A stretch of DNA of 64,000 nucleotides from Chthonomonas calidirosea T49 (GTDB lineage Bacteria; Armatimonadota; Chthonomonadetes; Chthonomonadales; Chthonomonadaceae). Below the pieces are notes generated by a model. It was not told the DNA's origin, did no database searches, and worked only from the letters and a program-made list of their open reading frames with translations. The position numbers and the translations under genes were made by a program. The DNA lies in NCBI RefSeq assembly GCF_000427095.1, contig NC_021487.1, positions 3,147,241 to 3,211,240 of the forward strand, in the 5' to 3' direction. Positions 54,090 to 64,000 of this stretch are shown in pieces (the stretch's first letter is position 1; every line of letters starts with the position of its first letter).

Positions 54090-54650
54090 TTAGCGGCGTT
54101 TGCGGAACCCTAGGAAGCCCGCACCGACCAGCATGGTGGCCATAGCCACAGAGCTGCCCAATTCGGGCGTGCTAGCAGAGAATTGACCGCTGAACGCGCC
54201 CATTGTACCGTTCCACGAAGTGGTAGTGCCGGTGAAGGTACCTGAGGAGTTTTGCGGAATGTAGCTCTGAATACTGGGATCGATGCTGGAGTATTTGATA
54301 CCGCTCACAGCGAACGTCGCAATGTTCTGAAAGGTCTGAAAGATGCTCATGGTTCCATTTGAGAAGTGGAACATGAGATTGTTCGCGGAGTCTTTCAAGT
54401 CACCTTGGATGCCGTGTGGACCGGAGCCGCTCACCGTGAGTGTGTAGTTTGGACCTGCGCCAGGTGAGATAGGATTTGCTGAGAGATCGGTCAATTTGAC
54501 CAGCTCAGAGCTCGGGCTGGCGAAACCGGTTGACGTCGGTTGAAAGCTACCGCTAACGAAGAGGTATTGAATGCCGTTCGCCTTGGCAAACCCCGGAGCG
54601 AGGAGCAAAGCTCCTATAGCCGCTCCAACAAACCATTTGATGGATCGCAT
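54090..54650 (-). CDS. Exported protein with PEP-CTERM-like TPELGS tail, intact copy
   Basis: A 186-residue surface-protein candidate with signal peptide MRSIKWFVGAAIGALLLAPG and no recognised domain. The middle is Ser/Thr/Gly-rich and beta-like (NYTLTVSGSGPHGIQGDLKD, NNLMFHFSNGTMSIFQTF). The end has the exosortase-substrate plan: T-P-E-L-G-S, a hydrophobic stretch (SVAMATMLVGAGFLGF) and RKRR. Transcription is from a perfect sigma-54 promoter with a leader of about 110 nt. The Shine-Dalgarno (AAGGAGG) is far, about 14 nt, from the ATG. Two damaged paralogues follow upstream on the same strand. Confidence 0.82.
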   Translation of the reverse strand: MRSIKWFVGAAIGALLLAPGFAKANGIQYLFVSGSFQPTSTGFASPSSELVKLTDLSANPISPGAGPNYTLTVSGSGPHGIQGDLKDSANNLMFHFSNGTMSIFQTFQNIATFAVSGIKYSSIDPSIQSYIPQNSSGTFTGTTTSWNGTMGAFSGQFSASTPELGSSVAMATMLVGAGFLGFRKRR

Positions 54651-54773
54651 TCTGATTTTTCGTTCCTCCTTCGCACTAGTGTGTGGATGACCATTCTTGG
54701 GCTCCATCGCCGCACTACCTTGTCCCTCCCCCACACAAGGTCAGAGCCACGACAGACACCCACTTTTCTATCA

Positions 54774-54789
54774 TGCAATTTCCGTGCCA
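54774..54789 (-). promoter_or_regulatory. Sigma-54 (RpoN) promoter of the PEP-CTERM-like gene
   Basis: On the minus strand TGGCACGGAAATTGCA matches the -24/-12 consensus (TGGCACG-N4-TTGCW) at every fixed base, with the GG and GC dinucleotides exactly 10 bp apart. The identical 16-mer occurs at 61029-61044. Confidence 0.9.
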
Positions 54790-54829
54790 AGTTAGCACGT
54801 TAGAGGAGTAAGTGATGGTTCTTTGGTAT

Positions 54830-54852
54830 GATATTTCCTTGCTAGAAATATC
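54830..54852. promoter_or_regulatory. Palindrome upstream of the sigma-54 promoter (candidate enhancer site)
   Basis: Perfect inverted repeat GATATTTC-N7-GAAATATC centred about 52 bp upstream of the -24 element, a distance typical for activator sites of sigma-54 promoters. It is not found at the other sigma-54 elements of the window. Confidence 0.45.
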
Positions 54853-54889
54853 TTTATTATAAGAAAGACTAATAGGAGTCCGCTAGAAA

Positions 54890-54919
54890 TTCTCGGCTTG
54901 TAACTTTACAAGCCGAGAA
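54890..54919 (-). terminator. Terminator of the second PEP-CTERM-like copy
   Basis: Perfect 13-bp stem TTCTCGGCTTGTA/TACAAGCCGAGAA with ACTT loop. On the minus strand AATTTC follows. It lies 38 bp beyond the pseudogene stop. Confidence 0.7.
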
Positions 54920-54957
54920 GCAGGATGTGTCTGGTCTGATTTACAAGATCAAAAGCA

Positions 54958-55523
54958 CTATCCTTTTCGACGTAGGCCTAATAAATCAGAGCCCAAACGC
55001 ATCGTCATCATTGTCACCGAGCTACCAAGTTCCGGGGTATTGGCCGAGAATTGGCCATTGAATTGCCCTGCCTTCCCATTCCAAGTCCCGGCGGTAGATC
55101 CGGTGAAGCTGCCATAAGCGTTATTGGGTATCAGGTTCTGTAGACCCGGAATAACATTACTATATTTTAGCACGGTAACAGCGAATACGGCGTTCGAACC
55201 AGCGGTCTGGAAGACACTCAGTGTGCCTTGCGAAAAGTCGAACAACGTGGTTGCACCGTTCTTCAAGCCGCCAATAACGTTACTTGTAGGTGGCGATAGG
55301 GTTTGGACGTTCAATGAATAGGTACCGGTAAACCTGGTATTGACGACCCATCCAAGTGCTGAATGATCACCCTTTCTGTGCCGTTCAGGCCACTTGCTGG
55401 AGACCAGTTAAACACCTTGGACACATGGGTCTATTGTATACCGCTGATGCCGGCTTGCGCGGCGAAGGGGTAGCTCAACAACACCTCTATAGCGGCTCCG
55501 AAGAGCCATTTCCTTACCTTCAT
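54958..55523 (-). pseudogene. Decayed PEP-CTERM-like paralogue, copy 2
   Basis: Homologue of the intact copy at 54090-54650. The start (ATG 55523, ribosome-binding GGAGGGAGGG) and signal peptide MKVRKWLFGAAIEVLLSYPF are intact, but an in-frame TAG follows GISGIQ at about 55431. The frame then changes near 55330, after which the conserved part resumes (YSLNVQTLSPPTSNVIGG, TTLFDFSQGTLSVFQT, NGQFSANTPELGSSV) and ends in LRRKG. At least one nonsense and one frameshift mutation are therefore present. Its sigma-54 promoter carries a change at the -24 GG. Confidence 0.85.
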
Positions 55524-55623
55524 TCTTCCCTCCCTCCATTCTCCATAGAGACTAGCTATTAAGGTAATCTTCTCCGCCTGTTCGGCATGAGGTAGCAGAT
55601 AAGTCTCTCTCAATTATCCTTAA

Positions 55624-55639
55624 TGCAATTTCCGTGTCA
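55624..55639 (-). promoter_or_regulatory. Damaged sigma-54 promoter of copy 2
   Basis: On the minus strand TGACACGGAAATTGCA. It differs from the intact element only by G to A in the -24 GG dinucleotide, a change known to weaken sigma-54 promoters strongly. Confidence 0.75.
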
Positions 55640-55765
55640 AAACACATAAGTTCTATAAGGTTGAGTTCGGTTCATGAATGTTTTTTCTTAATAAAAATCA
55701 TCAAAAAGTAGCTCCACTAATATTATTGAGAAGTATAACCTTTGGACGGAGCAGATACAAACACA

Positions 55766-55795
55766 GGGTAGGACACAGGCACTTGTATCCTACCC
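55766..55795 (-). terminator. Hairpin after the third PEP-CTERM-like copy
   Basis: GGGTAGGA/TCCTACCC stem (55766-55773, 55788-55795), resembling the terminator of the intact copy (GGGTAGGATG). On the minus strand only a broken T run (TGTGTTTGT) follows. Confidence 0.5.
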
Positions 55796-55822
55796 ATGAG
55801 AAGATTAGCTGTAAACGGTTTT

Positions 55823-56263
55823 TCAGCGACGTTTGCGGAACCCTAGGAAGCCTGCACCAACCAGCATGGTGGCCATCGCAACTGAACAGCCTAGCTCTGG
55901 TGTAGTGGCCGAGAACTGACCGTTGAATTTACCGCTAGGGGCCGACCAAGTTCCTACTGCAGAACCCGTAAAACTTCCTTTGGAGCCGTTGAAAAGATAC
56001 TGCGGCTGATTTAGCTGTGGGGCAACATTGGAATAGGTGATGTTGCGCACTATAAAAAAGTTGCGTTATTGCCAGGCGCTTGGAAAACGGTAACCGTCCC
56101 CTCCAGAGAAGTCAAACAGCGTTGTACCAAGTTTATCCGTTAGGCTTCCGTGGACAATACCACCTGAATTGACGACATGAAGGTTAAAAGCGCCGTTTGA
56201 ACTAATGGGAGCGAAAGGAGAGAATGGAGAGTTAAGCATGCTATTAATGCAATTTAATGCCAA
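55823..56263 (-). pseudogene. Decayed PEP-CTERM-like paralogue, copy 3 (5' truncated)
   Basis: The conserved middle (FNLHVVNSGGIVHGSLTDKL, TTLFDFSGG) and the tail (TTPELGCSVAMATMLVGAG, then FLGFRKRR) are present, but in different frames. An extra G in a GGGG run (near 56100) and a missing T in a T run (near 56056) break the frame twice. The signal-peptide region is absent: the remaining coding sequence joins directly to a sigma-54 promoter remnant, as if a deletion had removed leader and signal peptide together. Confidence 0.8.
56248..56262 (-). promoter_or_regulatory. Sigma-54 promoter remnant of copy 3
   Basis: On the minus strand TGGCATTAAATTGCA. The GG and GC dinucleotides are 9 bp apart instead of 10, so the element is probably inactive. 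Confidence 0.5.
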
Positions 56264-56425
56264 TTTTTTGAAATGCCATGCCTCTAGGAAGAGAGTACTG
56301 TCGTTGTTACGATAATGGATACCCGCATACTTAGTTCGTAACCTAACGGCCCACGGAAACGTCTAAACGATGAAACCTACCTGTTAGGGAACCGATGAGA
56401 GCCTAAGGATATGAGGACGTAGAAG

Positions 56426-57163
56426 ATGGCATGGATAGAGGGGGTCTGGATGAGCCAAGAGCGACCCGCCCCGAAGACCAAAAGGCGGTCGTATGCGCCC
56501 AATTCGCCTTCGGAAGTCCCAACGGCAGAAACGAGAAGGGTACAAAAGGATGCCGACCCATCGGCTCATGAGGAGGAACGTTGGAACGAGGCGGCTCTCA
56601 TCGCGCGTACCCTGCAAGGGGATCGAACGGCCTTCGATGTGCTCTTTAGGCGCTATCAAGACTACGTATACCGAATCGTATACGGTATTGTGGGCAACGC
56701 GGAGGAGGCAAAAGACCTTACTCAGGACGTTTTCCTTCAGGCGTTTCGCTCGCTAGGCCGATTTCGTGGGCAAGCCAAATTCGCCACCTGGCTCTATCGT
56801 ATTGCGGTGAACCGCGCCACCGATGCCGTTCGCACCGCCCAACGAAAACGCTTTTTGCCTTTGTGGGACTGGATGGTGAGCAGCGCTTCAGAGACAGCGG
56901 ATTGTCGGGAGTTCCCCGAAGTGGAGACCACGCGCGGGCAGGTTCAAGAGGCGCTGTTGCGCTGCCCGCTAGTTTTGCGCCAAGCGTTGGTTTTGCGCTA
57001 CTACAATGAGTGCAGTTTGGAGGAGATGGCGGAGATATTGAACTGTTCGACCGATGCCGTTAAGGTACGCCTGCATCGAGCGCGCGCAATGTTTCGACAG
57101 GTCTATGGGGTAGTTTGCCGTGAAGAAGAGCCGCTGGCCTCGGAAACGCGATCGGAGGAGTGA
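56426..57163 (+). CDS. ECF RNA polymerase sigma factor
   Basis: Extracytoplasmic-function sigma factor of 245 residues. A polar N-terminal extension of about 60 residues precedes region 2 (FDVLFRRYQDYVYRIVYGIV, AEEAKDLTQDVFLQAFRSL), then region 4 (VLRQALVLRYYNECSLEEMA, STDAVKVRLHRARAMF). ATG at 56450 (MSQERPAP) with GAGGGGG upstream is an alternative start. It is followed by a zinc-finger anti-sigma factor after 4 bp, the usual pairing. Confidence 0.94.
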   Translation: MAWIEGVWMSQERPAPKTKRRSYAPNSPSEVPTAETRRVQKDADPSAHEEERWNEAALIARTLQGDRTAFDVLFRRYQDYVYRIVYGIVGNAEEAKDLTQDVFLQAFRSLGRFRGQAKFATWLYRIAVNRATDAVRTAQRKRFLPLWDWMVSSASETADCREFPEVETTRGQVQEALLRCPLVLRQALVLRYYNECSLEEMAEILNCSTDAVKVRLHRARAMFRQVYGVVCREEEPLASETRSEE

Positions 57164-57167
57164 GACG

Positions 57168-58349
57168 ATGAAATTGAGTTCCTATCGCGCGTGTGCGAAA
57201 GCTCGGCAACAGATGCAGATGCTTTTGGATGCATCCTCATTCGAATCGCTTCCGCAGAGCTTGGAGAGGCACCTTGAACAGTGCGCGGCTTGTCGGGAGA
57301 TGTGGCGCCTCTTTCTCTTCTATGAAAACCTTTTACGTGCCGGCCGCGCCCAAATTCCCGATGGGGGCGATCTTCTTCCGGCTTTCCATCGGCGGTTGGC
57401 GGCTCTGCCACCATCAAGGAGGACGAGCTACTCCGGAAAATGGGAAAGTTTTCCGGAGACCCTTCGGCGACGCTGGCAGCTGATAGCAGGGCTAGGTGCC
57501 GCTACGATGGCCACGATGGCCGTGCTATGGATGGTAGCGGCCAGAACGCTTTTTCTGTCAATTGACCGAAGTTCACCTGCCGTGTTGCCACCGAAGACCG
57601 CCGGCCTTCATAGCAGCCGGGCCGTAAAGGGGTCGCAATCTCACACTGTGACCCTCCAACGGCCGTCTCTTGCACAGCGAACTCCTGAGTTCGTAAGACC
57701 GCACCTCGATAACCAAAAAACTGTCTCCTCTAGCTTGGCACGTAAAGCCCCGCAAATAGCCCTTCGCACCGCTTTGCCAGGAGCGGAGGTACCTAGCTCC
57801 AGAAAATTGGAAGAGGTTTTGGTAGCCTCGATGTTGGCGATGAGGGAAAAGGAGGCCTCACCTCAGAGAGTCGTGCAATTTTCTGGAAACCCCCATATCG
57901 CCCTAGACGCTCTGATGCGATCTAAGCCCATGATACCGGTGCCGATGGGCTCATTTGGTGACCAAAGTTTACTAGATGGTAGCCTAAACGTTCCCGAGAA
58001 CCTCAGGCACGCATCAGCGACCTTGATGGCCGGAGCTTTTGCTGCGCCTGACAGTGTGCTGGCGCAAAAACTGAAAGAGAATGCTGTGGTGCCGCAGAAT
58101 CGGGCGTCAATGTCTGAAAGGAAGGGCGCTCTACCCACAAAAATGGCAGGATTTGCTGGTGCCGGATTTTCTTTGGATCTCCATTCCGGCCTTGAAGGGA
58201 ACGTACCTATTCGTCTTCATGTCGTGGACCCCAGGCGCGGATTCACCGGCACCTTGCAAGTGATTCCCAATAGCTCGTCAAACAGCAGTGCGCCGACCAT
58301 CACTTTCCAAGAAGCTCTCATTCCAAAAACGGAAGGAGGTCAACCCTAA
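57168..58349 (+). CDS. Membrane anti-sigma factor with zinc-finger (ZAS) domain
   Basis: A 393-residue protein that should bind and silence the preceding sigma factor. The ZAS motif is HLEQCAACREMW (His-x3-Cys-x2-Cys) near residue 40. A single membrane helix follows (LIAGLGAATMATMAVLWMV, about residue 115), then a long extracytoplasmic region of low complexity of about 260 residues with no recognised domain. GGAGGAG before ATG at 57168 supports this start. The last base overlaps the next gene (TAATG). The long exterior domain could sense envelope stress, a general inference for this family. Confidence 0.88.
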   Translation: MKLSSYRACAKARQQMQMLLDASSFESLPQSLERHLEQCAACREMWRLFLFYENLLRAGRAQIPDGGDLLPAFHRRLAALPPSRRTSYSGKWESFPETLRRRWQLIAGLGAATMATMAVLWMVAARTLFLSIDRSSPAVLPPKTAGLHSSRAVKGSQSHTVTLQRPSLAQRTPEFVRPHLDNQKTVSSSLARKAPQIALRTALPGAEVPSSRKLEEVLVASMLAMREKEASPQRVVQFSGNPHIALDALMRSKPMIPVPMGSFGDQSLLDGSLNVPENLRHASATLMAGAFAAPDSVLAQKLKENAVVPQNRASMSERKGALPTKMAGFAGAGFSLDLHSGLEGNVPIRLHVVDPRRGFTGTLQVIPNSSSNSSAPTITFQEALIPKTEGGQP

Positions 58350-59302
58350 TGCGATCTATTTTTCGATTCCTCTTGTTTGTGCCGATCATTTTTGTTGGCT
58401 GCATCGCAGGTTATGCACAGATAGGCCCGGCGCCAGCCGTAGAGCTAGAAGCTCCCTTCACACTTCAAGGGGATGCAAGTAGCCTAACGCTTTCAGCTAA
58501 CAATGCGGACGTGCGTGAGGTGCTCCATGCCCTCTTTCTTCAAGCACATCGCCAATATGTGCCCGACGCCACCGTGATGGGGCGGGTAACTCTCCTACTG
58601 ATCCATCAGCCGTTTCATGTGGTGCTCGATAGTGTGTGCCGTCAAGCGTTTCTTGCCTATCGGGTAGATGAGCATGGAATCTATCATATCTACCAGGATG
58701 AGGCCGCCTTGCGTCAGACCTTTGCCCGCATCAAGCTGCTCAACGGACTTACAGCCCAGCAACTGAACAACTATCTTCGCTCGCAGTCCCCGAATCCGGC
58801 CGATGTTCCAACGGCCCCACTGCATAGTCTCACTCCGCAGCCTTTGCTGCCTAATGTTGTGACCAAAACCCTACCAAAACTACCCGCGTCGCCCTCACAA
58901 GATTTAATGCAGTCGGAAGCGCAGTTTCAGAAGACGTGGCAGCAGTATCAGGCTTTTCAGCGGCGATCGGCTCTGTTAAGCGATGAGTACGCGATGGTGC
59001 GTATGAACGTGCCAGACGGGAAACCGATTCCGGTGGCAGAGGTATTGCGTGATTTCAGCGAGCAGTCGGGTGTTCCGATCTATGTAGACCCTATTATCGC
59101 TCAGGACTCAAATTTCCGTATTGATGGCACGCTGATAAGCCCTTTGCCGGAGGCGTTAAACCTAATAGGCCTTGTTGCTCATCTTTCTGTGTACAAGGTA
59201 AATTCGGCCTATTTTGTGACCACGGCGCCTGATTTCCGAATCTTTTACGGGGATACCAGTAAACCCAAGGCCTCCTATCCGCCTTCAGCCTCAGGCCGTT
59301 GA
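58349..59302 (+). CDS. Exported protein with secretin/TonB N-terminal (STN)-like domain
   Basis: A 317-residue protein with signal segment FRFLLFVPIIFVGCIAGYAQ. The region ANNADVREVLHALFLQAHRQ through VMGRVTLLLIHQPFHVVLDS looks like an STN domain, found at the N-terminus of secretins and TonB receptors used in sigma signalling. A second similar module appears near residue 235 (VAEVLRDFSEQSGVPIYVDP; INPLPEAL-like SPLPEALNLIGLV). No secretin barrel follows. Translationally coupled to the anti-sigma gene, so it probably belongs to the same signalling unit. Confidence 0.8.
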   Translation: MRSIFRFLLFVPIIFVGCIAGYAQIGPAPAVELEAPFTLQGDASSLTLSANNADVREVLHALFLQAHRQYVPDATVMGRVTLLLIHQPFHVVLDSVCRQAFLAYRVDEHGIYHIYQDEAALRQTFARIKLLNGLTAQQLNNYLRSQSPNPADVPTAPLHSLTPQPLLPNVVTKTLPKLPASPSQDLMQSEAQFQKTWQQYQAFQRRSALLSDEYAMVRMNVPDGKPIPVAEVLRDFSEQSGVPIYVDPIIAQDSNFRIDGTLISPLPEALNLIGLVAHLSVYKVNSAYFVTTAPDFRIFYGDTSKPKASYPPSASGR

Positions 59303-59458
59303 AGAACTGAGAAACGTTTTGGTCGTGTTCTTCCGTAGAATAGGCGGGGTCGGCAGAAGGAATTTTCTTTTGTTCTGTCGAAATTTCCCATTACTTCAAC
59401 TGCAAGCGTTTACAATGAAAAACAAAAGGCTTGCGGAAGGTGCCTATCTATTATCCTG

Positions 59459-59481
59459 CTGAATGCATTCTCTGCATTCAG
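59459..59481 (+). promoter_or_regulatory. Leader hairpin before the metal-binding protein gene
   Basis: Perfect 9-bp inverted repeat CTGAATGCA-TTCTC-TGCATTCAG, 31 bp before the ATG. It may be an operator or an RNA hairpin. A TACAAT box lies at 59411-59416. Confidence 0.4.
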
Positions 59482-59512
59482 AAAACTCAACACTTTAAGG
59501 AGGCAAAGAGAG

Positions 59513-59821
59513 ATGCAAAAGTTGTTCACTCGTTTGGGGACGGCCATCGCGTTGGTGGCCCTGGTTGGCACCGGTGCGCTCGCTAAGCCGCCCGTTCATC
59601 ATGCGGTAAAGAAAGCCACCCAACCCAAATGCCCAGCCTGCGGCATGTTCCTTGCCAGCAAGAAGACGGCGAAAATGACTCGTGCCGTGAAGATCAAAGG
59701 AAAGACCTACTACTGCTGCGCCAAGTGCGATATGTCCAAAATGGAACACCATACCATGAAGGGACATAAAATGGAACACCATACCATGAAGGGACATACA
59801 CGCTCTAAGGGCACAAAGTAG
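59513..59821 (+). CDS. Small exported His/Met/Cys-rich metal-binding protein
   Basis: A 102-residue secreted or periplasmic protein. The signal peptide is followed by KCPACGMFLASKKTAK and YYCCAKCDMSKM, two Cys pairs like those of NosL/YHS-type copper or heavy-metal chaperones. The tail holds a duplicated decapeptide KMEHHTMKGH, also His- and Met-rich. Copper or another soft metal is a reasonable inference; a specific partner gene is not adjacent. AAGGAGG lies 9 nt before the ATG. Confidence 0.82.
   Translation: MQKLFTRLGTAIALVALVGTGALAKPPVHHAVKKATQPKCPACGMFLASKKTAKMTRAVKIKGKTYYCCAKCDMSKMEHHTMKGHKMEHHTMKGHTRSKGTK
59738..59797 (+). repeat. 30-bp tandem duplication within the metal-binding gene
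   Basis: Two identical 30-bp copies (59738-59767, 59768-59797) encode the His/Met decapeptide twice. Zero differences between copies indicates a recent duplication or slippage, so copy number may vary. Confidence 0.95.
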
Positions 59822-59872
59822 CTGTTTGTGGGACGCAGTGCCGTTACTTTGCGAAAGGTATCGGCTCCCAGA

Positions 59873-59912
59873 AAGAAGATAGAAGGCTCCTCTAGGAGCC
59901 CTCTATCTTCTT
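59873..59912. terminator. Bidirectional terminator between convergent genes
   Basis: 18-nt arms (59873-59890 and 59895-59912) with one mismatch and a TCTA loop; A-rich at one end and T-rich at the other. It contains the stop of the receiver-PilZ gene. Confidence 0.8.
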
Positions 59913-60926
59913 AGCAACGATCTGTTTCAGTTCTTGCTTTGTTGGATAGGGAATACGGGTGAACTGCAAGGCTACGGTATAGCGGTTCCCTTGTAGAGAC
60001 TGTGGTTTGCAGCGCTGCACTTCGCCTTCTAGTTGGAGGGTTTTTGGGGCGATATTCTCAAGGACAATGCGAACCGTTTGGCCGTCTGTAAGAGGCACAG
60101 GTGAGATAAGAGCACACCCCCCTAGACTAAGGTCGGTCAGTACGGCGTGTAACTCCTCTTGAGAGGGAAGGGGTTGAAGACGTACTTCTGCTTGCAAGGC
60201 GACCCTTGGATATTGGCGACGTTGAAAACGGTGTAAGGTTTGCGGCATCTGTAGCTTCCATGCCCAAACGATCTGTTGCTGACGGTCGAGGATTTTAGTG
60301 GCAAAACGGTAGAGAGCCGTCTCACCGGTGAGCTCTACATGGATGCGTGTTCCTATGGTTATATCTGGAGGAAGGGTGACTTGCGGCTCGCCCGTTACCC
60401 AAAAAGCGTCTTGTTCGACCTGCAGAATGCGTGTGCTGGATTGACCCTGTGGGCTTCTTAGCAGGACTTGCTGGCCTACGGCGAAGAGATGGAGCTGCGG
60501 TTCCGTTGGAGGGGCGAGGGCTTTTCGTTGAGCCTGATCTATCAATTGACGCAGGGTTTCTATGGTGAACGGTTTTATAAGGACGGAGGCGATGCCTAGC
60601 CGACGAAGGCTCATCCAGAGGGAAAGACGATCTTCTGGGGCGAGGAGAACGAGGGCCGAAGAGGGGCAGAGAGCACAGAGTTTTGGAAGCAGGGTCTCCG
60701 TGTCAGGAAGCAAGATATCCCAAAGAATGAGGTCGGGATTACGTTCTACGGCCTGGCGCAGGCCTACAGGGCCTCTTGCCAGAGGAATGACTTCGAAGGC
60801 TCCATAGTGCTCCAGGCTGGCCTCAATGATGCGACTAATGTAAGGGTCGGCATCGGCGACCAGAAGGCAAAATCGCTCGGTAACATGTTCCTCCTCGTTC
60901 GCATCGGTGGAGTGGGCGCACATCAT
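59892..60926 (-). CDS. Response-regulator receiver fused to PilZ domain
   Basis: A 344-residue cytoplasmic protein. The receiver (about residues 20-130) has the phospho-acceptor Asp in LILWDILLPD and the conserved Lys in VLIKPFTIETL. The second half has a YcgR-N-like beta region (VGQQVLLRSPQGQSSTRILQ) and a C-terminal PilZ domain with the c-di-GMP motifs RRQYPR (RxxxR) and DLSLGG (DxSxxG). It should couple phosphorylation and c-di-GMP to motility or surface properties. A perfect sigma-54 promoter lies about 103 bp upstream of the ATG, with a good ribosome-binding site (AAGGGGAG). Confidence 0.93.
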   Translation of the reverse strand: MMCAHSTDANEEEHVTERFCLLVADADPYISRIIEASLEHYGAFEVIPLARGPVGLRQAVERNPDLILWDILLPDTETLLPKLCALCPSSALVLLAPEDRLSLWMSLRRLGIASVLIKPFTIETLRQLIDQAQRKALAPPTEPQLHLFAVGQQVLLRSPQGQSSTRILQVEQDAFWVTGEPQVTLPPDITIGTRIHVELTGETALYRFATKILDRQQQIVWAWKLQMPQTLHRFQRRQYPRVALQAEVRLQPLPSQEELHAVLTDLSLGGCALISPVPLTDGQTVRIVLENIAPKTLQLEGEVQRCKPQSLQGNRYTVALQFTRIPYPTKQELKQIVAKKIEGS

Positions 60927-61028
60927 CTCTCCCCTTTACAGCCTAGTGGGTGAGGCTTTCTTTAAAGTCTTAGTTGATTTGTTCTCGAGAGGGTAAAAAA
61001 AGAGGTTGCCTCCTCGCATTTTTCATAG

Positions 61029-61044
61029 TGCAATTTCCGTGCCA
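61029..61044 (-). promoter_or_regulatory. Sigma-54 (RpoN) promoter of the receiver-PilZ gene
   Basis: Minus-strand TGGCACGGAAATTGCA, identical over 16 bases to the promoter of the intact PEP-CTERM-like gene. Leader about 90 nt. Confidence 0.9.
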
Positions 61045-61137: not shown

Positions 61138-62373
61138 CTAAGCGATAAAATGCCGAATGGAGGCGGGAAGCAGGGCGGGAGAAAGCGTTTTTTCGTTCGG
61201 GTCGGCCAGGACCACAGCGCGTTCTATGGTATTTTCTAGCTCCCGAACATTGCCAGGCCAGGAGTAGCGTAGGAGGAGCGCTTCGACCTCAGGCGATATC
61301 TCCGTTAGCTGGCGTCGGTTCTGGGCGCTAAAACGCGCGAGGAAATGACGGGCAAGTGGCACTATATCCTCACGACGTTCGCGTAAGGGGGGCACATGAA
61401 TGGTCACAATGTTGAGGCGGAAATAGAGGTCTTGGCGGAATTTGCCCTCCTTCACCGCAGCATCAAGGTCATGATTGGTGGCAGCAATGAGGCGCACATC
61501 CACTTTTGTGGTTTTGGTAGCACCTACCCGTTCAAACTCCCACGTCTGCAGAACTCGTAAGAGCTTTACTTGCATGAGAGGGGGAATGTCGCCGATCTCA
61601 TCAAGAAAGAGCGTACCGTTGTGGGCTAGCTCGAAACGGCCTGGTTTCGCCGTGGTAGCCCCAGTAAACGCGTTCTTCTCGTGGCCAAACAGTTCGCTCT
61701 CTAGCAGGGTTTCTGGCAGGGCTGCACAAGAGACGGCGATGAAGGGGCCGCTGGCACGCGAGCTTTTCTCGTGAAGGGCGCGAGCGATCAACTCTTTGCC
61801 GGTGCCACTTTCACCCGTGATCAGTACGGTTGCCCGTGTGTCGGCAGCACGTTCAACGATATCGTAGACCTCCTGCATGGCTGGGCTAATACATCGGAGC
61901 GGGTTATCGTAGAGGGAGGCGGCGCCTTTATCATGTTTGTCCGTTTTTTTCTTCTCTTGGGGAAGAGATGGTAACGATTGTGTGTGAGCACGATACTCCA
62001 GGGCACGTTTAACGGTGAGCTTTATCTCGTCAATATCGAAAGGCTTTTGTAGATAGTCGAAGGCCCCGCAGCGTGTGGCTTCCACCGCCGAGCGAATGGT
62101 GCCATAGGCGGTGAGAATGATAGCGACACAGTTTGGATGGAGGCGTTTGATCTGTTGTAGCACCTCCACGCCGCTCAGGCCGGGCATGATGAGGTCGCAG
62201 ATAAGCACATCAATGGGTTGCGATTTTGCGTACTCTAGAGCGCGCTGTCCGTTTTCAGCAGTAAAGACAGTGTGCCCTTCTGGCATGAAGAGCGCTTGAA
62301 GAGCACGTCGAATGTTAGGCTCGTCATCCACAATCAGGATATTTAGACTCTCTAAAGAGGTACGGGTAACCAT
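61138..62373 (-). CDS. Sigma-54-dependent response regulator lacking a DNA-binding domain
   Basis: NtrC-type activator of 411 residues. Receiver: [14 protein letters not shown], the phospho-acceptor in [13 protein letters not shown], Lys in [16 protein letters not shown]+ domain: Walker [18 protein letters not shown], a loop [15 protein letters not shown] (Asn replaces the first Gly of GAFTGA), Walker [14 protein letters not shown], and [20 protein letters not shown]. It ends with [15 protein letters not shown] and about 30 more residues, so the C-terminal Fis-type helix-turn-helix is missing. Only about 95 bp separate its stop from the next promoter, too little to encode one. Activators without this domain are known (for example FlgR). 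Confidence 0.93.
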
Positions 62374-62551: not shown

Positions 62552-64000
62552 TTAGTTCCCTGCCCATCTTTGCTCGCCTAACCGTAGGGTAGGAAGCGGT
62601 AAATCGGTGTCGAACAGAATGGGAGGTGAGGGAGGTAGGAAGATGCGAAAACAGGCGCCTTCTCCGCGTTGGCTCTCCACCTCAATGTGCCCGCCGTGCT
62701 GTTCCAGCAGTTTTACCACGATAGGAAGGCCTAAACCCGTTCCTTTCGGGCGAGTGGTTACAAAGGGTTGGAAAATGCGCTCTTTGTCTTCGGGCGCTAT
62801 GCCTTCTCCGTTGTCTTTCACCTCGATAACGAATCGAAGATGGGTGGGTTCGTAACGGGCTGCTATCTCTAACTCTCCTTGTTCATTCATCGCCTGCACC
62901 GCATTCGACACGAGGTTGCGTAGTATCTGTTGAAGGTGCACGGGGTCGGCTTGCAAAGGGGGCATGGGGGTTTGCAAGTTCCAATGGAGGGTGATGTGCT
63001 GTTCGTCAAGCATTGGCTGCATTGTTTGTAGGGCCGTTTGGAGGAAGCTGGCAAGATCGATGGTCTGTGGGTGGGGGGGTGTGGGGCGAGAGAACTCGAG
63101 AAGCTCTCCGGTTAGGCGGGTTAGGTCATCTACTTCCGCGAGAATGATCTCTGTCCACTCGGAGGCTAGACCATGGCTTTGTAGCTCTCTTTGAAGGATC
63201 TGGGTGCCGGCCCTTATGGGCGAGAGAGCGTTGCGAACTTCATGAGCCATTTTGGCTGCGAGTTGTCCGATGTCGGCGAGTCGCCGCATACGCTCGATCT
63301 CGCGCTCTAACGCGATCTCTTGGGTGATGTCTTCTAAAATCAGCACCACGCCGGAGGGCTCGTTTCCGGGCTCTGGAAGCCCGGAAACATGGAGAGCGAC
63401 CGTCTTAGGCTGTGCGCCGGGGAAATGAAGAGGGAAGCGCTGGCGCAGCATGGCTTCTCCTGAAGAGCGCGCGCGCTCCACAAGCCGTCGGAATATCTCC
63501 TTCTCGCGTTGAGGAATGGAGAGCTTCTCGACAAGTTGATCGAGGGAGCAACCACGACATTTCGAGGCGGATATTCCTAGGATCTTCTCTACAGCAGGGT
63601 TACAACGGGTGATGATGCCGTGACTATCGGCGGAGAGAATGGCGATGTCAATGGAGCGGAGCACGCGCTCTGTGTAGGCTTGTAGTTTGCGCGCCGTCTC
63701 CATACTCGTCCGCATAGCGATATAGAGACGAGCGTTCTCAATGGCTATACCGGCTTGCCCAACAAAAGCGTTGAGCAGGTTCAACTGGGTGGGCAGAATA
63801 GGTTTTTTTCTTGTGCGATTGTCCGCCACGAGAATGGCGAAGCACTCACCATGGGAGTTACGGATAGGGGCGAGCACAAGTAGGTTGGAGCCGAGGGCAC
63901 GTGCAAATCCGCGCAGCAAACGCGCCACTTTATCGGAAAGGTTCTGTGGGTGACGTGGGTCAAACACCAGTGCGCCCTGCGCTTCGGCAATAAACTTTAG
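62552..64000 (-). CDS. Sensor histidine kinase, GAF-PAS-HisKA-HATPase (5' end beyond window)
   Basis: The frame is open to the last base of the window, so the N-terminus is missing. Visible parts: a GAF-like domain (NLLVLAPIRNSHGECFAILV, NAFVGQAGIAIENARLYIA), a PAS domain (RSIDIAILSADSHGIITRCN), the phospho-acceptor His in AAKMAHEVRNALSPIRAG, the N box LRNLVSNAVQAMNEQG, and DNGEGIAPEDKERIF and GTGLGLPIVVKLLEQHGG. The layout resembles the AtoS/NtrB-like kinases and PEP-CTERM-associated PrsK. It precedes the sigma-54 activator by 178 bp on the same strand, so it is its likely partner. Confidence 0.92.
   Translation of the reverse strand, partial: LKFIAEAQGALVFDPRHPQNLSDKVARLLRGFARALGSNLLVLAPIRNSHGECFAILVADNRTRKKPILPTQLNLLNAFVGQAGIAIENARLYIAMRTSMETARKLQAYTERVLRSIDIAILSADSHGIITRCNPAVEKILGISASKCRGCSLDQLVEKLSIPQREKEIFRRLVERARSSGEAMLRQRFPLHFPGAQPKTVALHVSGLPEPGNEPSGVVLILEDITQEIALEREIERMRRLADIGQLAAKMAHEVRNALSPIRAGTQILQRELQSHGLASEWTEIILAEVDDLTRLTGELLEFSRPTPPHPQTIDLASFLQTALQTMQPMLDEQHITLHWNLQTPMPPLQADPVHLQQILRNLVSNAVQAMNEQGELEIAARYEPTHLRFVIEVKDNGEGIAPEDKERIFQPFVTTRPKGTGLGLPIVVKLLEQHGGHIEVESQRGEGACFRIFLPPSPPILFDTDLPLPTLRLGEQRWAGN

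Follow-up and report, generated by a model that had tools for sequence, protein, structure and literature searches.

Can one short sequence, repeated before two unlike genes, tie a surface protein and a signalling protein into the same regulon? The question is raised by a stretch of 64,000 nucleotides (the window) from Chthonomonas calidirosea T49, a member of the Armatimonadota, which corresponds to C1:3147241-3211240 of a complete genome of 3,437,861 bases in one contig. The 16-mer TGGCACGGAAATTGCA has exact copies at 54774-54789(-), upstream of an intact PEP-CTERM-like surface protein gene, and at 61029-61044(-), upstream of a gene for a receiver-PilZ protein, and it fits the sigma-54 -24/-12 consensus TGGCACG-N4-TTGC. 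The original prediction for this DNA regarded it as a shared sigma-54 promoter, expected rpoN and exosortase genes in the genome and enrichment of the motif before sorting-tail genes, and proposed a counterpart of the Proteobacterial PrsK/PrsR system with a cyclic di-GMP (c-di-GMP) reader in the regulon. In Proteobacteria, PEP-CTERM genes are tied to sigma-54, with further regulators, also outside that phylum, left to find (Haft et al. 2006, PMC1569441), and for one such gene, Aquincola pepA, dependence on RpoN has been demonstrated experimentally (PMC9850573). The window very probably houses the regulators of a small sigma-54 regulon dedicated to an exopolysaccharide (EPS) matrix and sorted surface proteins.

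The genome was scanned by pattern searches and by reading the stretches around the matches. There are four exact copies of the 16-mer, and three more with one change that is confined to the spacer between the -24 and -12 elements. Perfect TGGCACGN4TTGCW sites number eight, and seven of these are in promoter position; the remaining one (1516714) is coding, inside a 1018-aa open reading frame (ORF), and was discarded. Almost all of the 39 sites with one mismatch were discarded as coding; three are intergenic, and these include the decayed promoter that precedes a tail pseudogene in the window. The flanking sequences of the seven promoter-position sites are unrelated to each other.

The genes downstream of these seven sites define the candidate regulon. 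The exact copy at 1501118(-) precedes an operon for a Wzc-like kinase/co-polymerase, a Wza-like exporter, a glycosyltransferase, an exosortase and EpsI, and that at 3116462(-) precedes an EPS priming sugar transferase (TIGR03025, above cut-off). The other two exact copies are those of the window, 3202014(-) before the TPELGS tail protein and 3208269(-) before the receiver-PilZ protein. The sites with a changed spacer lie before a second tail protein ending in STPELSS...RRHRR (1253948, -), a cold-shock protein (257941, +) and an M16 peptidase of the PreP type with 971 aa (2227245, +). The exosortase is the only one in the genome (TIGR02602, 136 bits against a cut-off of 105.55), and EpsI, with Wzc, Wza and the glycosyltransferase as neighbours, scores 45.2 against the TIGR02914 cut-off of 42.8. 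rpoN is likewise a single gene (one PF04552 match, E 7e-28). Both expected genes are therefore present, and the regulon is wider than first proposed in that it includes the EPS/exosortase machinery itself.

Within the window, the 16-mer has four matches with up to three mismatches; the shuffling expectation is 0.61, and none of the shuffles gave as many as four. The intact tail gene (54090..54734, -) is a 214-aa ORF with a C-terminal STPELGS, a hydrophobic stretch and RKRR; its likelier start is the ATG at 54650, preceded by AGGAGG, which places the intergenic site about 124 bp upstream. The protein has no match in Pfam or NCBIfam, and falls outside TIGR02595 and PF07589 with its variant TPELGS tail, so its assignment is by tail architecture, paralogy and the shared promoter. 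Next to it are two sorting-tail pseudogenes, both of them real paralogues. Pseudogene 2 (54958..55613, -) has an in-frame stop and frameshifts with a readable TPELGS tail, and pseudogene 3 (55823..56263, -) has split reading frames and a readable TPELGC tail. Altered forms of the 16-mer had been claimed before both. This is clear for pseudogene 2, where TGACACGGAAATTGCA (55624..55639, -) has one mismatch, GG to GA at -24, and weaker for pseudogene 3, where the 15-base relic TGGCATTAAATTGCA (56248..56262, -) is one base short and the -24/-12 spacing is thus broken.

In the array at 54090-56263(-), three tandem tail paralogues, one intact and two decayed, carry progressively damaged sigma-54 sites; promoter and gene decay together.

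PF07589 matches none of the tails in this genome, and a profile made from an alignment of its own tails was used for searching instead. Four strong tails were recovered, namely the two site-bearing genes and the two pseudogenes of the window, and the profile also picked out three other intact tail genes (2367407, 2514839 and 97350). The consensus site is upstream of two of the five clear intact tail genes.

The link between the site and sorted proteins is strong among relatives. Among the order's rpoN-bearing relatives, a sorting-tail (PEP-CTERM-type) gene directly follows 21 of 41 perfect sites, compared with five of 443 background ORFs (p=5e-21); as some of the species are sisters and one of the genes has two sites, not all of these cases are independent. 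The tail rule was a pattern of our own, and eight of ten site-linked tail proteins of relatives pass the TIGR02595 cut-off. The expected enrichment of the motif before such genes is thus borne out. Other genes that follow sites in relatives encode Wzy-type ligase, glycosyltransferases, UDP-sugar dehydrogenase, acyltransferase and exosortase. The abundance of perfect sites itself depends on rpoN: within the order, 83 sites were found against nine for a reversed-pattern control in 17 genomes with rpoN, and 11 against six in 14 genomes without it. Clear enrichment is seen in some other families as well, as in G222 (19 against one for the reversed control). When the upstream regions of EPS, exosortase and receiver-PilZ genes were considered, ten of 42 had a site in rpoN-positive loci, compared with a mean of 0.07 and a maximum of two for 100 permuted motifs. 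The corresponding figure in rpoN-negative loci is 0 of 16, a set that is not quite empty if L166 is counted, the one positive locus from a genome without detected rpoN, which had been left out beforehand because that genome is only 73% complete.

Across the phylum, the components also travel together. A survey of 291 genomes, whose counts are not corrected for shared ancestry and take in incomplete metagenome-assembled genomes (MAGs), found rpoN in 218, exosortase in 241 and an orthologue of the window's sigma-54 activator in 207. Both rpoN and activator occur in 201 genomes, rpoN alone in 17, activator alone in six and neither in 67 (Fisher 3e-42); for rpoN and exosortase the respective numbers are 200, 18, 41 and 32 (9e-11). 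The activator is single-copy in 168 of the 207 genomes that have it.

Gene order points the same way. The order kinase-activator is nearly universal among the loci read, with receiver-PilZ next in many, and a site lies between activator and receiver-PilZ in L124, L126, L128, L131, L136 and L140, and in weaker form in L133 and L137. Two deep branches, L304 and L305, have activator, perfect site, receiver-PilZ and then rpoN. A third deep-branch cluster (L303:413-12715) comprises a kinase, rpoN, an activator bearing HTH_8, receiver-PilZ, Wza, a UDP-sugar dehydrogenase (assigned by reading its sequence only), exosortase, EpsI and Wzc. Much of the wiring between sigma-54, EPS and surface proteins appears to recur across the phylum.

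Some further features of the relatives were recorded. Two perfect sites 149 bases apart precede the same PEP-CTERM gene in L187 (926 and 1075(-)), and a pseudopilin-like DUF1559 gene has a perfect site at equal distance in two sister species (L186:2386 and L188:2461(-)). Genomes of families f15 and f16 have mostly kept rpoN and an activator without a helix-turn-helix (HTH) domain, with no excess of strict sites; their promoters may have drifted. In genus g56, some species are without both rpoN and exosortase and others have exosortase without rpoN. These losses are recent, and could show the order of decay.

Does the link to EPS and PEP-CTERM proteins merely belong to a broader set of unrelated genes, with sigma-54 acting as a general regulator? 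The sites upstream of the cold-shock and M16 peptidase genes would fit this, as would those of relatives that precede pseudopilin-type (DUF1559) and other genes. However, about half of the relatives' sites are followed by sorting-tail genes, and many of the rest by genes for glycosyltransferase, Wzy, UDP-sugar dehydrogenase, acyltransferase or exosortase. A general role is therefore considered unlikely. The dedicated regulon agrees with the view that sigma-54 controls the bacterial exterior, with EPS and surface genes as common targets (Francke et al. 2011, PMC3162934). It differs in that PEP-CTERM and Armatimonadota are unmentioned there, and in that most of the strong sites here are of the EPS/surface kind.

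The putative regulators are encoded where the original prediction placed them, the kinase and the activator being upstream of the receiver-PilZ gene on the same strand. The activator (61138..62373, -; 411 aa) is full-length and consists of a receiver, the AAA+ sigma-54 domain and a lid, followed by the C-terminal end; no HTH_8/Fis domain is present. No other true sigma-54 activator is encoded in the genome: this one matches with E 1.6e-72, and the next match (1e-7) is a generic AAA protein. A search for orthologues in a plasmid collection gave no match. The C-terminal part of the kinase is encoded at 62552..64000(-), and its gene runs past the window end; the full protein of 905 aa has the architecture GAF-GAF-PAS-HisKA-HATPase and no hydrophobic segment of transmembrane strength, and is predicted to be soluble. 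No consensus site is present upstream of kinase, activator or rpoN in this genome, as would be looked for in autoregulation.

The receiver-PilZ protein (59892..60926, -; 344 aa; PF00072, PF07238) has its promoter 103 bp upstream of the ATG, and the equivalent site is kept in relatives. The receiver residues D25, D70 and K118 and the PilZ RRxxxR are invariant across seven orthologues. Both PilZ motifs, RxxxR and [D/N]xSxxG, are represented (QRRQYPR and DLSLGG), the second being mostly kept in orthologues, and several orthologues have a PilZNR-like segment. The protein is accordingly similar to PilZ-type c-di-GMP receptors such as YcgR in its PilZ domain with RRxxxR, and differs from them in being fused to a receiver, behind a sigma-54 promoter and beside an activator. 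With ten GGDEF matches in the genome, c-di-GMP is plausible in this organism. Of the proposed c-di-GMP reader, the place in the regulon is supported by the recurrence of the link between site and receiver-PilZ in relatives, and binding of c-di-GMP is predicted from motif residues only.

The absence of a DNA-binding domain from the activator extends to its crown orthologues. PF02954 is absent from the window's activator and six orthologues, and 17 of 17 crown orthologues end 2-14 residues past the query match, shortly after the AAA lid. Intact relatives from outside the phylum have roughly 60-116 residues more at that end, and HTH_8 is kept in deep branches of the phylum itself (clearly in L302, L303, L306 and L307, above cut-off in L318 and below it in L304). 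All activators of the phylum form one clade with a Shimodaira-Hasegawa-like approximate likelihood ratio test (SH-aLRT) support of 99. A quick tree calls for two to three changes, and a single clade of HTH-less activators is not rejected (approximately unbiased test, p 0.53). HTH-less activators were also suspected from match ends in Acidobacteriota and Verrucomicrobiota; these were rejected, as about 77-88 further residues are present.

Activators without a DNA-binding domain are known as type Ic, with FlgR of H. pylori and CtcC of Chlamydia as examples (PMC3162934). The window's activator belongs with them by its AAA+ sigma-54 domain, the absence of an HTH and its full length, and also in being the one activator for all sigma-54 promoters of its genome; by analogy it would act from solution. 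It is unlike them in its predicted targets, EPS and sorted surface proteins, where FlgR controls flagella, and in that the domain was lost across the phylum crown and deep relatives bearing HTH_8 persist.

Proteobacterial PEP-CTERM promoters are preceded, at a distance of about 63 bases, by an enhancer motif (PMC1569441). Here, no word common to the regions upstream of the seven sites was found beyond shuffles in a small sample of seven sequences, which agrees with the loss of the DNA-binding domain. A different possibility is that the regulon works through this activator and that DNA targeting is provided in trans, by a separate DNA-binding protein or by a cryptic determinant at the C-terminus. 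Deep-branch relatives keep HTH_8, so enhancer binding is probably ancestral, and the limited size of the upstream search leaves room for this. However, the lack of a shared word and the abrupt end of every crown orthologue speak against it, and with only one true activator there is no need for discrimination among activators. Targeting in trans is thus quite unlikely.

Could this be PrsK/PrsR proper, whether acquired or inherited from a common ancestor? The logic of RpoN, PEP-CTERM genes and EPS is the same (PMC1569441, PMC9850573), with sigma-54 promoters before PEP-CTERM genes, a kinase adjoining a receiver-AAA+ activator, and an exosortase/EPS context. However, the activator scores 374.6 bits with the PrsR model TIGR02915 (cut-off 502.6) and is matched better by AtoC/NtrC models, and even the HTH_8-bearing activators of the phylum reach only 379-408. 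The kinase scores 98.9 with the PrsK model TIGR02916 (cut-off 300), and is predicted to be a soluble GAF-PAS protein, in contrast to the transmembrane PrsK. The missing Fis-type domain and the separate clade of the phylum's activators add to this. Further differences are the promoter on the exosortase/EPS operon and the priming transferase, the receiver-PilZ protein in the regulon and, in the small sample of seven upstream regions, no detected enhancer motif. Membership was rejected on the model scores, the missing domain and the lack of transmembrane helices, and identity with PrsK/PrsR is very improbable. The proposed counterpart in another phylum therefore stands as wiring, and not as the same regulator.

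That the 16-mer is a duplication relic or dispersed repeat, as three copies at the duplicated tail-gene array might suggest, has next to no chance of being correct and was rejected, because the sites match the -24/-12 consensus before unrelated genes with different flanks, vary in their spacer letters in relatives, and are in excess only where rpoN is kept.

For the dedicated regulon, the following mechanism can be proposed. The soluble GAF-GAF-PAS histidine kinase would sense an intracellular cue and phosphorylate the receiver of the neighbouring activator, as suggested by the domains and the conserved adjacency. Having lost its Fis/HTH_8 domain, the activator would oligomerise and contact the closed complex of RNA polymerase and sigma-54 from solution and not from an enhancer, for which FlgR and CtcC are precedents. 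Since there is only one true activator in the genome, the -24/-12 promoter alone may set targeting, with the seven strong sites being selected. Its targets would be the Wzc-Wza-glycosyltransferase-exosortase-EpsI operon, the EPS priming transferase, at least two sorting-tail proteins, receiver-PilZ, the cold-shock protein and the M16 (PreP-like) peptidase. Because exosortase/EPS and tail genes are all among them, polymer, sorting enzyme and cargo would be produced together. The receiver-PilZ protein would probably receive phosphate from this kinase as well and bind c-di-GMP, and would act after transcription, on EPS synthesis or export or on surface behaviour.

The extension of this mechanism to the whole crown of the Armatimonadota is an even bet. 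Under it, sigma-54 became a dedicated matrix factor, its last activator lost the DNA-binding domain, possibly once, and the regulon became a single enhancer-free switch, in which receiver-PilZ couples the phosphorelay to c-di-GMP as a feed-forward on EPS export and protein sorting.

Several points weigh against the dedicated regulon. Two of its seven targets, the cold-shock protein and the M16 peptidase, are outside the EPS/surface theme, and the intact tail genes at 97350, 2367407 and 2514839 have no consensus site upstream. The receiver-PilZ gene is not next to the activator in every relative. Exosortase occurs without rpoN in 41 of the 291 genomes (some of the MAGs being incomplete), so the two are not strictly coupled. 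The promoter evidence extends to only a part of the phylum, since perfect sites do not outnumber the reversed control in families f15 and f16. A degenerate enhancer may still exist, given the small enhancer test of seven sequences. Finally, transcription from the seven sites is predicted from sequence, as are the functions of all parts of the regulon.

A literature search, with most subscription journals outside its reach, found no paper on such an RpoN/PEP-CTERM regulon in Armatimonadetes/Armatimonadota. The system is a well-supported case of PEP-CTERM genes under sigma-54 outside Proteobacteria, in which the activator is of another type and the promoter also lies before the exosortase operon. 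The natural series from HTH_8-bearing deep branches, through the HTH-less crown, to loss together with rpoN bears on when sigma-54 control can dispense with enhancers. The system also predicts surface regulons in a little-studied phylum with almost no genetics.

Two neighbouring loci deserve mention. Beside the tail-gene array, at 56426-59302(+), a gene for a sigma factor of the extracytoplasmic function type (Sigma70_r2, r4_2) is followed by ORFs of 409 and 317 aa that have no Pfam match, and the three are apparently one operon. At 59513-59821(+) there is a gene for an exported protein of 102 aa, without a Pfam match, whose cysteine pairs and His/Met-rich repeat MEHHTMKGHK suggest that it is possibly metal-binding.

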